A stretch of 20,207 nt of DNA from Treponema sp. (GTDB lineage: Bacteria; Spirochaetota; Spirochaetia; Treponematales; Treponemataceae): the NCBI GenBank assembly GCA_016290335.1, contig JAEETM010000060.1:1-20207 (forward strand), in the 5' to 3' direction. Of the stretch, positions 9,322-13,239 are shown in pieces. The translations under genes and the position numbers were made by a program. Every line of letters starts with the position of its first letter. The stretch's first letter is position 1. The notes beneath the pieces are model-generated. The model saw only the letters and a list, made by a program, of their open reading frames with translations. It was not told the DNA's origin and made no database searches.

Positions 9322-9756
9322 TTATTTTCCGGAATCCTTTGCGCAGCTCTGGCAGATTCCCCACAGATTTGTCTGAATCTTTGAAATTGAAAAGCCGTCC
9401 GGTACCATTGTAGAAATATTCTGGAAAAGGTTAGTAACTTCTGTTCCTGCAAAAACATCAAAAATACCGTTGCATTTCAGGCATTTAAAGTGAAGGTGAT
9501 CCCTCATTTCTGCATCAAAACGCAGCTTGTCATCTTCTATTTTAATAGTCTGTATAATCTTTTTTTCTTCAAAGAGCTTGAGCGTATTATATACAGTTGT
9601 TTTAGAAAGAGTAGGATAAATAGGATTTAATGCATCGTAAACGGTTTCTACATCAGGATGAACAGGATGTTCGCAAAGGTATCCATAAACCGCAATGCGC
9701 TGAATAGAAGGTCTAATACCCGCATCAGCAAGAATAGTCTGATATTGCTTAGTCAT
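9322..9756 (-). CDS. Fur-family metalloregulator, PerR-like
   Basis: 144 residues, normal Fur-family length. N-terminal winged helix (about 1-75) with the recognition-helix region PTLSKTTVYNTLKLFEE (48-64); C-terminal dimerisation/metal domain. Two CxxC pairs (Cys92/Cys95 and Cys135/Cys138) give the structural zinc site. The regulatory-site residues match PerR order: His33, Asp81 (RFD), His87 and His89 (DHLHF), and Asp100. PerR has Asp at this last position where Fur has Glu, so a peroxide-sensing PerR-type role is favoured; specificity remains inference. Such repressors bind short AT-rich palindromes when metallated and de-repress stress genes. AAGGA precedes the ATG with about 7-base spacing. 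A perfect 14-bp palindrome 25 bp upstream (9781-9794) suggests autoregulation. It is divergent from lon and upstream of the ankyrin gene on its own strand. Confidence 0.93.
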   Translation of the reverse strand: MTKQYQTILADAGIRPSIQRIAVYGYLCEHPVHPDVETVYDALNPIYPTLSKTTVYNTLKLFEEKKIIQTIKIEDDKLRFDAEMRDHLHFKCLKCNGIFDVFAGTEVTNLFQNISTMVPDGFSISKIQTNLWGICQSCAKDSGK

Positions 9757-9873: not shown

Positions 9874-12261
9874 ATGACTGATGATATCGAACAAAATACA
9901 ATAGAAGAAAACTCTATTATTCCTACAGAAAAAATGCTTCCCGGCAAGCTGCTTCTCATTTCGCTGGATGCCCGTCCTATCTTTCCAGGCATTTTTACTC
10001 CAATGATGATTGAAAAGCCGGAAGAAGTTAAGGTTGTAGAAAAAGCTTACGAAGATGACGGCTTTCTTGGTATTGTGCTTTCAAAAAATCATGAGGAAGC
10101 CCCTGGGGTTTCAGATTTATACAGGGTTGGAACAGCCGTAAGAATCATAAAGAAAGTAGCACTTCCGGATGGCGGAGTTAATATTTTTATTTCAACGTTA
10201 AAGCGTTTCAGAATCTTAAAAACACTCCACGAAACCGCACCAATGGCTGTTACAGTTGAATACCTGGAAGAGGAAGAAGCCGATACCTTTGAAGTAAAAG
10301 CCCTTACCCGTGCGCTTATAAGCGAAATGAAGGAGATTTCTGATAATAATCCTCTTTTCTCTGAAGAAATGCGCATCAATATGGTAAATATCAACGATTC
10401 AGGGAAAATTGCAGATTTTGTTGCTTCTGTTTTAAATGTAGAAAAGGAAGAACAGCAGAAGATTCTTGAAACCCTTAATATCCGCCAGAGAATGGAACGG
10501 GTTCTTGTATTTATTAAGCGTGAACAGGAGCTTCTCCGTGTACAGATGAAGATTCAGCGGGAAATAAACGAAAGGGTAGAGAAAAACCAGCGTGAATATT
10601 TTCTGCGTGAAGAAATGCGTTCAATTCAGGAAGAGCTTGGCGAAGATGCAAACGGAAATGCAACCGACTACCAGAAGTTTAAGCAGAAAATTGAATCGTT
10701 GAACTTCGAAGGCGAAATAAAGGAAACCGTAGAAGATGAGCTTGAAAAGTTCAGTCTTCTTGATCCTAATTCAGCTGAATACATTGGTACAAGAAACTTC
10801 CTTGAACTTGTATGCCAGCTTCCATGGCCACAGACCCAGACCGTAAAGGATGATTATAACCTTGCAACTGCAAAAGAAATCCTGGAAAAAGACCATTTTG
10901 GGCTTGATGACGTAAAAAAACGTATCCTTGAGTATCTTGCAGTCCGCCTTATGAAAAAAGACAGCAAGGGTTCAATACTTCTTCTTGTTGGACCTCCTGG
11001 AGTTGGTAAAACAAGTGTCGGTAAATCAATTGCCAATGCAATGAATAAACAGTTCTACCGTTTTTCTGTTGGTGGAATGCGTGATGAAGCAGAAATTAAA
11101 GGTCACCGCCGAACATATATCGGTGCCATGTGCGGAAAAATCATTCAGGGCTTAAAGATTACAAAAAGTCTGTCCCCTGTGTTTATGATTGATGAAGTTG
11201 ACAAAATGGGTGCCAGTCACAACGGAGACCCTGCCGCAGCCCTGCTTGAAGTTCTTGACCCTGAGCAGAATGTAGCTTTCCGAGATAATTATCTTGATTT
11301 GCCTTTTGATGTTTCAAATGTATTCTTCATTCTTACGGCAAATACACTCGATTCCATACCGTCACCTCTTCTGGATAGGGCAGAAATAATTGAGCTTTCG
11401 GGCTACATCGACCAGGAAAAGCTTGAAATTGCAAAAAAATACCTTATTCCGAAGAATCTTGCAAAAAATGGTTTACAGAAGAATCAGGTTAAGTATACCA
11501 AGAAGGCCTTGTACAGGATTGCAGAAGAATACGCAAGAGAATCTGGTGTGCGCAATTACGAAAAGTGCCTCGATAAGATTCACCGTAAACTTGTTACAGA
11601 AATGATTACAGAAAATCAACCTGATAAAAAATACACAATTGATGCAGAAGATTTGTACAAGTACCTTGGAAAGCCTGTTTTTGATGAATCAGAAATAAAA
11701 ACTGCGAAGGTACCGGGTACTGCAATCGGTCTTGCCTGGACAAGCATGGGCGGAGATACACTTCTTATAGAAGCAACCTCTTTTGCAGGAAAAGGTGGCC
11801 TTGTACTTACCGGCCAGATGGGCGATGTAATGAAGGAATCAAGCCAGATAGCTTTTGACTGGGCAAGAAAGTGTGTTCTTGAAAAAGGAATAAAAACTGC
11901 CGAATGGTTTGAACAGAATATTGTCCATCTTCATATTCCGGAAGGTGCAACACCAAAGGATGGACCAAGTGCGGGAATTACAATGGCAACAACCTTTATT
12001 TCTCTGTTCACCGGAAAAACAATAAAGCCGCATCTTGCAATGACAGGCGAGCTTTCTCTTACGGGGCAGGTACTTCCAATAGGTGGCCTCAGGGAAAAAA
12101 CAGTTGCAGCTAAGCGTAACAAAATCAAGACTATAATTATTCCTAAAGCTAATTTCAGAGATCTGGAAGATATTCCTGAAAATGTAAAGGAAGGAATAAA
12201 GTTCATACCTGTAACCGACATAAAGGAAGTTCTGGCAGAAGCCTTAAAAATGGATTTATAA
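9874..12261 (+). CDS. lon: ATP-dependent Lon protease
   Basis: 795 residues, typical LonA length. It degrades misfolded and regulatory proteins in the cytoplasm as a hexameric ring. Domains: N-terminal substrate-binding domain (about 24-215, KLLLISLDARPIFPGIF onward), helical region with QREYFLREEMRSIQEELGE (239-257), AAA+ module with Walker A GPPGVGKT (373-380), Walker B VFMIDE (436-441), sensor-1 region LTAN (487-490) and Arg502, and a C-terminal Ser-Lys protease domain with catalytic Ser699 in PKDGPSAG and Lys742 in GGLREKTVAAKR. All key residues are present. The start at 9874 has no Shine-Dalgarno, and neither does the next in-frame ATG (9934); a promoter-like pair ends 6 bases upstream, suggesting a leaderless or nearly leaderless mRNA. 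It is divergent from the PerR-like regulator, so stress co-regulation is possible. Confidence 0.97.
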   Translation: MTDDIEQNTIEENSIIPTEKMLPGKLLLISLDARPIFPGIFTPMMIEKPEEVKVVEKAYEDDGFLGIVLSKNHEEAPGVSDLYRVGTAVRIIKKVALPDGGVNIFISTLKRFRILKTLHETAPMAVTVEYLEEEEADTFEVKALTRALISEMKEISDNNPLFSEEMRINMVNINDSGKIADFVASVLNVEKEEQQKILETLNIRQRMERVLVFIKREQELLRVQMKIQREINERVEKNQREYFLREEMRSIQEELGEDANGNATDYQKFKQKIESLNFEGEIKETVEDELEKFSLLDPNSAEYIGTRNFLELVCQLPWPQTQTVKDDYNLATAKEILEKDHFGLDDVKKRILEYLAVRLMKKDSKGSILLLVGPPGVGKTSVGKSIANAMNKQFYRFSVGGMRDEAEIKGHRRTYIGAMCGKIIQGLKITKSLSPVFMIDEVDKMGASHNGDPAAALLEVLDPEQNVAFRDNYLDLPFDVSNVFFILTANTLDSIPSPLLDRAEIIELSGYIDQEKLEIAKKYLIPKNLAKNGLQKNQVKYTKKALYRIAEEYARESGVRNYEKCLDKIHRKLVTEMITENQPDKKYTIDAEDLYKYLGKPVFDESEIKTAKVPGTAIGLAWTSMGGDTLLIEATSFAGKGGLVLTGQMGDVMKESSQIAFDWARKCVLEKGIKTAEWFEQNIVHLHIPEGATPKDGPSAGITMATTFISLFTGKTIKPHLAMTGELSLTGQVLPIGGLREKTVAAKRNKIKTIIIPKANFRDLEDIPENVKEGIKFIPVTDIKEVLAEALKMDL

Positions 12262-12289: not shown

Positions 12290-12307
12290 AGTGTTTGCAC
12301 ACTTTTT
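12290..12307 (+). terminator. Candidate lon terminator
   Basis: AGTGT (12290-12294), loop TTGC, ACACT (12299-12303), followed by T's to 12307, starting 28 bases after the lon stop. The stem is only five pairs and AT-leaning, so termination may be weak. Confidence 0.4.
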
Positions 12308-12468
12308 CCATAATTAATCCACAAGTTATCCACAATTATTGTTCAATTGGCCGGATTTCTTGTGGATTTTTATTTTTCTGTGAAAAAGTCTGTAAGTTTT
12401 ACATAACAAGGAAAATGGAATCTAAATCTATAAAATATATAGAGATAGATATATTTCTATGATAAATG

Positions 12469-12483
12469 TGATAATCATTATCA
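12469..12483. promoter_or_regulatory. Fur-box-like 7-1-7 palindrome
   Basis: TGATAATCATTATCA is a perfect inverted repeat of 7 + 1 + 7. Aligned over 12464-12482 it matches 15 of 19 positions of the classical Fur box, including 13 consecutive bases. It lies between convergent genes rather than before a coding gene, within the DnaA-box cluster. Binding by the PerR-like protein of this window or another Fur paralogue is inference. Confidence 0.45.
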
Positions 12484-12521
12484 AATCTGCCGCAAATGTA
12501 TAGAACTTGTAATACTACTAT

Positions 12522-12544
12522 ACTTCACAAAAAAGAAGTTTTTT
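12522..12544 (+). terminator. Terminator-like hairpin in the lon-STAS gap
   Basis: ACTTC (12522-12526), loop ACAAAAAA, GAAGT (12535-12539), then a T-run to 12544. A wider ACTTGT...ACAAGT pair surrounds it. With no gene just upstream, it could end lon readthrough or an unannotated small transcript. Confidence 0.3.
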
Positions 12545-12595
12545 AAACAAGTTATCCACAAGATATCCACAAAGAACAATTGACAGAAAAGGCAT

Positions 12596-12642
12596 AAAAA
12601 AGACCTGGTTAAGAATAGACTTTCGCCTACCTGTACCAGGTC
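12596..12642 (-). terminator. Terminator of the STAS gene
   Basis: Read on the minus strand, GACCTGGT (12642-12635) pairs with ACCAGGTC (12609-12602) and is followed directly by TTTTTT (12601-12596), about 45 bases after the STAS stop. Inside the 25-base loop, AGGC-GAAA-GTCT (12628-12617) can form a four-pair stem with a GNRA tetraloop. On the plus strand the hairpin is followed by ATTTTC, so it could also act weakly against lon readthrough. Confidence 0.7.
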
Positions 12643-12687: not shown

Positions 12688-13239
12688 TTAGCCTAAAGAA
12701 ACTTCAGCCTTATCGTTAATAGCTATAATAGATTTACAGCCTGAGCATCGGAATCTTCCTGCTCTTGTAGCTCTAAGCTTTTTGCTGCATACCGGACATG
12801 CAATTACAAATGGGAATACAGAACCGGCACCTGCACTTTCTTCAGCAAAGAATGCTATAGCTTCTTCAGCAGTATTCTTGATATTGAAGAACTGAGAAAA
12901 ACCGAGAAGCTGGAATACTTCGTAAACCTTTGACTGAATTTCAAGAAGAACAATATCTCCACTCTTAGGCTTTACCATCTTTAAGAATACAGTAAAAGAA
13001 CCGATTCCTGTAGATGAAACATAATTCAAGGAAGAACAGTTGAAAATCAGATTAATATAACCGGCTTCAATAACATTTGTTATTTTCTTCTGGAAGAAAC
13101 TGGAATTATATGTATCGATGTAACCACTAAGATAGATAAAAAGACCATCCTTTACACCTTCTGCTCTCCTTAAACTAATGGTAAGACTGTCATCTCTATC
13201 ATTGTCAAAACCAGGAATAATATCATTATTGCTATCCAT
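12688..13239 (-). CDS. STAS-domain protein with C-terminal zinc ribbon
   Basis: 183 residues, soluble. Residues about 18-130 form a STAS domain of the anti-sigma-factor-antagonist type: FIYLSGYIDTYNSSFFQKKI (34-53), INLIFNCSSLNYVSSTGIG (62-80), then VLLEIQSKVYEVFQLLGFSQFF (97-118). In such proteins a serine in the SS-x-G motif is phosphorylated by a partner kinase; here Ser75/Ser76 are candidates, with Ser76 aligning to SpoIIAA Ser58. Residues 148-168 form a zinc ribbon, CPVC...CSGC (Cys148, 151, 165, 168), not a standard part of anti-anti-sigma factors. No kinase or phosphatase gene is adjacent. The partner is unknown. The start has GGAG 7 bases upstream (minus strand, 13250-13247). A good promoter and a hairpin terminator bracket the gene, so it is probably monocistronic. 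Confidence 0.88.
   Translation of the reverse strand: MDSNNDIIPGFDNDRDDSLTISLRRAEGVKDGLFIYLSGYIDTYNSSFFQKKITNVIEAGYINLIFNCSSLNYVSSTGIGSFTVFLKMVKPKSGDIVLLEIQSKVYEVFQLLGFSQFFNIKNTAEEAIAFFAEESAGAGSVFPFVIACPVCSKKLRATRAGRFRCSGCKSIIAINDKAEVSLG

Follow-up and report, generated by a model that had tools for sequence, protein, structure and literature searches.

We describe a conserved non-coding module in Treponema in which two arrays of DnaA boxes flank a 25-bp palindrome, and which is probably a control site for DNA copying of the datA/DARS kind and not an origin itself. In the reading we favor (probability roughly 0.55), it is a cis-acting DnaA-control site where DnaA would form a looped complex with a protein of the HU/IHF type, lowering the DnaA available for the origin. 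Observed are the arrays and the palindrome, their conservation, the mostly single copy, the separation from the dnaA-linked origin and the reuse of the palindrome at that origin. The timing of replication initiation in spirochaetes is little known, and a site that is conserved, mostly present as one copy and of defined anatomy predicts DnaA binding outside oriC and points to an architectural protein common to the origin.

The module was analyzed starting from the window, i.e. the whole 20,207-nucleotide stretch of Treponema sp. DNA, where it occupies the 426-bp gap between lon and a gene for a STAS-domain protein (Table 1). Perfect TTATCCACA boxes lie on the plus strand at 12326-12334 and 12552-12560, with their starts 226 bp apart, and each has a one-mismatch box at a distance of 2 bp (12315-12323, TAATCCACA, and 12563-12571, ATATCCACA). 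These positions confirm the original prediction, made from the sequence of this stretch, of two perfect boxes about 230 bases apart with one-mismatch neighbors 2 bases away. Its relaxed minus-strand boxes are present as words at 12361, 12379 and 12662, but two mismatches have to be allowed for them. The inner segment is 75% AT compared with 71% for the whole gap. Across the 20-kb window, the total of nine boxes with at most one mismatch is not unusual (shuffle mean 5.9; nine or more in 13 of 100 shuffles), and four of these nine are contained in 257 bp. Using 20,000 first-order Markov simulations of the gap, the probability of at least one perfect box was 0.008 and that of at least two was 0.0001. 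A perfect pair thus arose in about one of 10,000 simulated gaps, and four boxes with at most one mismatch were seen in none of 3,000 simulations. The stronger proof against chance boxes, as judged by sequence comparison, is their conservation in relatives.

Table 1. Features of the module and its surroundings in the window.
Feature	Position	Strand	Details
Far DnaA box array	12315..12334	+	TAATCCACA (one mismatch), 2 bp, TTATCCACA (perfect); at least 90% conservation in 15 of 20 aligned columns (22 sequences)
DnaA box array nearest the STAS gene	12552..12571	+	TTATCCACA (perfect), 2 bp, ATATCCACA (one mismatch); array kept in relatives
Central palindrome, 31-bp motif	12420..12450	no strand	25-bp heart at 12423-12447; far array 116 bp away, near array 121 bp away
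AT-rich inter-array segment	12335..12551	no strand	75% AT; sequence unconserved outside the palindrome
Weak terminator-like hairpin between module and STAS gene	12629..12641	+	5 pairs; 1 found vs shuffle mean of 0.2
STAS-domain protein gene	12688..13239	-	183 aa; Pfam PF01740, E=7.6e-20; zinc-ribbon match below cutoff
lon protease gene, convergent neighbor	9874..12261	+	Pfam Lon_C, AAA, LON_substr_bdg

Relatives were collected via the STAS protein, which yielded 43 loci with record titles of Treponema, Treponemataceae or Spirochaetaceae. The window protein is 97% identical to its homologue in a rumen Treponema MAG (L001). In the window and in most relatives the 3' end of the STAS gene faces the module, and the twin arrays of the relatives are located 3' of this gene, mostly beginning 14-190 bp past it. 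At 25 of the 43 loci, two perfect boxes lie on the same strand at a distance of 150-300 bp, in each case no more than 2 kb past the 3' end of the STAS gene, and some of the remaining loci keep one-mismatch versions of the boxes. In 1.6 Mb sampled from four chromosomes, three of the four samples having been chosen so as to include the module, such perfect-box pairs occurred three times and were the module every time. Full perfect-box listings of four genomes (G001, G002, G003 and G005), read by eye, likewise contained the module as the only such pair. lon is located next to the module in 3 of the 43 relatives, the contigs of some of which end early. Its linkage is accidental; what is conserved as a neighbor is the STAS-domain gene on the opposite flank of the module. 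The 34 far-side neighbor genes compared are encoded on both strands and fall into ten sequence clusters; nine of the 34 genes are convergent with the STAS gene. One of the 34, in L021, is a doubtful short frame, since a separate neighbor listing has a relative of the largest cluster at that position. With the exception of the STAS gene, what stays is the arrays and the palindrome and not the genes.

The order of elements in the module is DnaA box array, about 100 bp, 25-bp palindrome, mostly 103-119 bp, and DnaA box array, all of it non-coding. The arrays are about 190-245 bp apart and their boxes mostly point in one direction. Box arrangement was compared in 37 regions, namely the window and 36 of the 43 loci; L005, L007 and L037-L041, with a contig end, a displaced module or a distant or paralogous STAS copy, were left out. 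At least one array contains a box pair 2 bp apart in 20 of these regions and both arrays do so in 8, while neither array is a full 2-bp pair in 17. According to the available text of PMC11317965, E. coli DnaA favors box pairs 2-3 bp apart. Palindromes were aligned from the 29 of 37 regions with two clear arrays, giving the 25-bp consensus TAAnTCnnTRTAWTAYAnnGAnTTA with seven invariant positions. Alignment A1 was built from 22 sequences, the palindrome matrix from 28 (the misplaced L028 having been removed) and R2 from 26. In the 22-module alignment, majority identity was 0.84 and 0.88 for the box columns and 0.82 for the palindrome columns compared with 0.47 for the spacers, where none of 180 columns reached a conservation of 0.9. 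Distances from palindrome to far array cluster at 95, 103-106, 114-119, 127 and 136 bp, suggestive of whole helix turns (R=0.66 at 10.5 bp for distinct values and 0.58-0.68 for any period of 10-12, computed without a shuffle control), while no such clustering is seen on the near side (R 0.29). Because the phasing is one-sided and not sharp, we do not use it as a main argument.

Three loci (L007, L038 and L039) have their arrays displaced by 1.2-1.9 kb, with similar spacing and a palindrome between them; the arrays of L007 are reversed, and L038 and L039 come from Spirochaetaceae MAGs with a GC content of 53 and 55%. Two others (L008 and L188) combine two strong arrays with no recognizable palindrome. 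In a set of Treponema from rumen and gut (L009-L015, L019 and L022), GTGAAACA / TGTTTCAC words, which we take to be parS half-site-like, were seen by eye to recur between the near array and the palindrome. The window additionally carries a perfect 15-bp palindrome, TGATAATCATTATCA, at 12469-12483 between the central palindrome and the near array, which fits the 7-1-7 pattern of a Fur box, and a Fur-family gene (PF01475) is found at 9322-9756. Since this Fur/PerR-like palindrome is missing from all 217 loci compared, it is not part of the module. A phage search with the gap sequence returned zero matches.

We surveyed the genus using the module model R1. At E<=1e-6, 133 of 200 genomes (about two-thirds) gave a match, a count in which up to 21 of the 22 source sequences of the model may be included, and 67 gave none. 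A single match was found in 126 of the 133; of the remaining 7, three (G007, G098 and G190) have their second match on another contig. A first survey of 59 genomes had contained 20 with a weak match or none, all of which gave at least some match to STAS, with a clear homologue in 18. In the 800 bp 3' of STAS, 8 of these 18 have zero boxes with at most one mismatch and 5 more have one, while the other five have diverged arrays (L188, L201, L204 and L205) or two boxes (L197). As boxes are sparse 3' of the STAS homologue in such genomes, the module can be lost, moved or diverged.

The palindrome was also detected in 23 of 31 dnaA loci, a set in which some loci are closely related and one (L044) is probably a second or foreign dnaA, with about 1.3 expected from the sampled background; it was not found in the other 8. 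In 19 of the 23, a DnaA box with at most one mismatch is located at exactly -78 from the palindrome, and further boxes are found at -100, -48, -40 and +34, mirrored loci having been turned by hand. In T. parvum the palindrome is 5' of dnaA and no boxes lie close to it. Clusters of DnaA boxes were additionally seen 6-9 kb from dnaA in L095 (9526-9672), L096 (11817-11866), L102 (16956-17056) and L092 (6690-6719). All four adjoin TGTTTCACGTGAAACA / TGTTCCACGTGAAACA words, which we assume to be parS-like, and have a palindrome copy within about 0.2-0.9 kb. The MAG of L001 (G005) contains two dnaA genes, L044 (C40) and L054 (C66), with open frames of 458 and 506 aa, only one of which has the palindrome nearby; this may represent a second dnaA or contamination.

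Further palindrome copies occur elsewhere. The 3.43-Mb main contig of G069 has four palindromes at E<=0.1, one in the module, one at dnaA and two lying upstream of integrase genes. A tRNA followed by the palindrome and an integrase is found in L268 and L271 (ARAGORN tRNA and Pfam integrase), while L171 and L187 have the tRNA and an integrase-like frame without Pfam match, and L269 and L273 have a Pfam-matched integrase with no tRNA called at the junction. The palindrome is positioned 3-36 bp from the tRNA end and roughly 60-185 bp from the start of the integrase or integrase-like frame (L268, L271, L171 and L187), and is possibly an accessory site of Treponema integrative elements. Two copies lie beside the plasmid initiator genes Rep3 and RepA_C. 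Many more are found beside unrelated genes in T. parvum, T. socranskii, G052 and G072, some of them far from DnaA boxes. The palindrome as operator of a single regulon was considered and rejected, 20 other copies in T. parvum, T. socranskii and G052 having no common neighbor gene except for integrase-like frames at two of them (L171 and L187). A variant of the palindrome, AATTAAGTC...GACTTAATT, forms a dispersed repeat, with identical copies in L142/L147 (G052) and L150/L157 (T. socranskii) and equal-scoring ones in L255/L259/L266 (G072). The frames beside two other copies (L179 and L184) share a KTSVFGQLP tail.

In E. coli systems, IHF is used at the origin, at a distal DnaA site, in phage-type att regions and at plasmid origins. 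Because the palindrome is found at the origin, at the distal DnaA site, in att-type regions and at plasmid origins, we infer an IHF-like architectural protein that binds it; between the arrays the palindrome is IHF-site-like by location, though unlike the IHF consensus. HU-family genes were present in all six genomes searched, and Borrelia Hbb at dnaA-dnaN may offer a parallel. It is conceivable, though we advance it tentatively, that Treponema has a DnaA-control system of its own, with a widely conserved locus of the datA/DARS type that combines its arrays with a palindromic site bound by a spirochaete equivalent of IHF, this protein acting at oriC, the distal locus and att regions.

The original prediction had noted that dnaA was not nearby and had left the choice between an unlinked origin and a regulatory DnaA locus. 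Indeed, no dnaA was recognized among the window ORFs, which were read by eye and without profiles. In the five genomes with dnaA and module on one contig, the dnaA/dnaN linkage of an oriC was not found, the distances being about 368 kb in T. parvum, 388 kb in G059, 473 kb in G072, 562 kb in T. socranskii and 864 kb in G069 (14.0%, about 14%, 16.9%, 20.5% and 25.2% of the chromosome). A fixed chromosomal position of the module was rejected, since given this spread it is only loosely mid-arm. Orientation relative to the fork, as read from coordinates, varies as well (3 of 5 co-directional). GC skew was followed in four related chromosomes by sampling 20 stretches of 20 kb in each. All four showed one skew sign around the homologous locus, and the sign switched between the stretches flanking dnaA in T. 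socranskii, where skew is noisy at the far scaffold end, G069 and G072. T. parvum was sampled coarsely. Its skew is already weakly positive in the stretch at 2.49 Mb, which puts the switch 0.12-0.25 Mb from dnaA, and it is negative at both 2.23 and 2.36 Mb, the stretches on either side of the module. An origin unlinked to dnaA, or a rarely used standby second origin, would be in line with an AT-rich segment flanked by DnaA boxes and with a palindrome common to dnaA loci. However, this is highly improbable, as the sign changes at or near dnaA and not at the locus, the dnaA loci have boxes of their own in a fixed geometry that the module does not follow, and no rep or helicase-loader gene was recognized by eye beside the module. 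The regulatory locus or titration site, for which DnaA binding is predicted, in turn gains support from the conserved and unique twin-array module.

The direction of such control and the nature of the site allow for further readings. A DARS core consists of three boxes with a set orientation, whereas the strong boxes of the window are two tandem same-direction pairs. A DnaA-reactivating site of this type, promoting ADP-to-ATP exchange and raising initiation, is thus unlikely, even though the module is located mid-arm and DARS2, too, has IHF and Fis sites in addition to its DnaA boxes (available part of PMC4585315). We also find it quite unlikely that the module is a DnaA-responsive transcription signal for a neighboring gene or small RNA. 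At 22 of 34 loci the far neighbor is a member of either of two clusters whose genes point away from the module, and a TTGACA-like word near the far array was seen by eye to recur in several lineages, but cluster and strand of the neighbor vary (9 of 34 convergent), promoter-like matches equal those in shuffles (4 compared with a mean of 3.3), spacer columns at 0.9 conservation are absent and the Rfam search of the module gave no match at E<=0.1. Finally, the further palindrome copies, between tRNA and integrase genes as well as next to plasmid Rep3/RepA genes, could indicate a sequence derived from a tyrosine recombinase or att site, the module being the scar of a fossil integration or plasmid origin. 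This is improbable because the module is widely kept and the palindrome has a fixed geometry in dnaA loci, which is not expected of a scar; moreover, no integrase, tRNA or rep gene was recognized by eye beside the window module or among the far-side neighbors.

In case of the favored cis-acting control site, DnaA would occupy both box arrays while a DNA-bending nucleoid protein, presumably of the HU/IHF type, would bind the palindrome midway and help the two DnaA clusters to form one looped complex. The locus would double some time after initiation because it lies 14-25% of the chromosome from dnaA (five genomes). Once copied, it would compete with the origin, and DnaA (or ATP-DnaA) would be lowered by titration and perhaps also by stimulated ATP hydrolysis, as by E. 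coli datA. We assign the larger share of probability to negative control because an architectural site flanked by two arrays is closer to datA than to the three-box core of DARS. If true, the datA/DARS idea, known from E. coli and related bacteria (PMC4585315, in the text available), would extend to another phylum. If Treponema has the control system of its own considered above, the protein of the palindrome would be the architectural factor of spirochaete replication, and datA logic would have arisen or persisted outside proteobacteria.

In the literature searched, mainly titles and the beginnings of abstracts with subscription papers mostly outside, no spirochaete account of such a locus or palindrome was found; Borrelia DnaA has been studied at dnaX-ebfC and at the dnaA-dnaN origin (PMC9879097). 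DnaA-box clusters outside oriC are known in E. coli, Bacillus and Streptomyces, and those of Bacillus subtilis and Streptomyces coelicolor, which are close to oriC, are able to repress untimely initiation (PMC4585315, as far as available). The module resembles the latter as a cluster outside oriC and differs in being one mid-arm site with paired arrays and a second conserved site that is common to dnaA loci. With these Treponema dnaA loci it shares DnaA boxes and the same palindrome (23 of 31), but its arrays lie about 100 bp to each side of the palindrome and not at the fixed -100/-78/-48/-40/+34 positions. DARS1 and DARS2 of E. coli are, in the descriptions at hand, also non-coding DnaA-box sites far from oriC, of which DARS2 uses IHF, whereas their three-box core arrangement was not recognized in the module. 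IHF is found at oriC, datA and DARS2 of E. coli (PMC4585315), and in datA an IHF site lies between required DnaA boxes whose spacing matters (PMC4585315 and PMC5835720, both in part). Like datA as described there, the module is a DnaA-box cluster in a non-coding region away from oriC, with boxes to either side of what would be an architectural-protein site. It differs from datA in its phylum, in having two arrays separated by about 190-245 bp whose boxes mostly point the same way, and in a palindromic site unlike the IHF consensus WATCAANNNNTTR.
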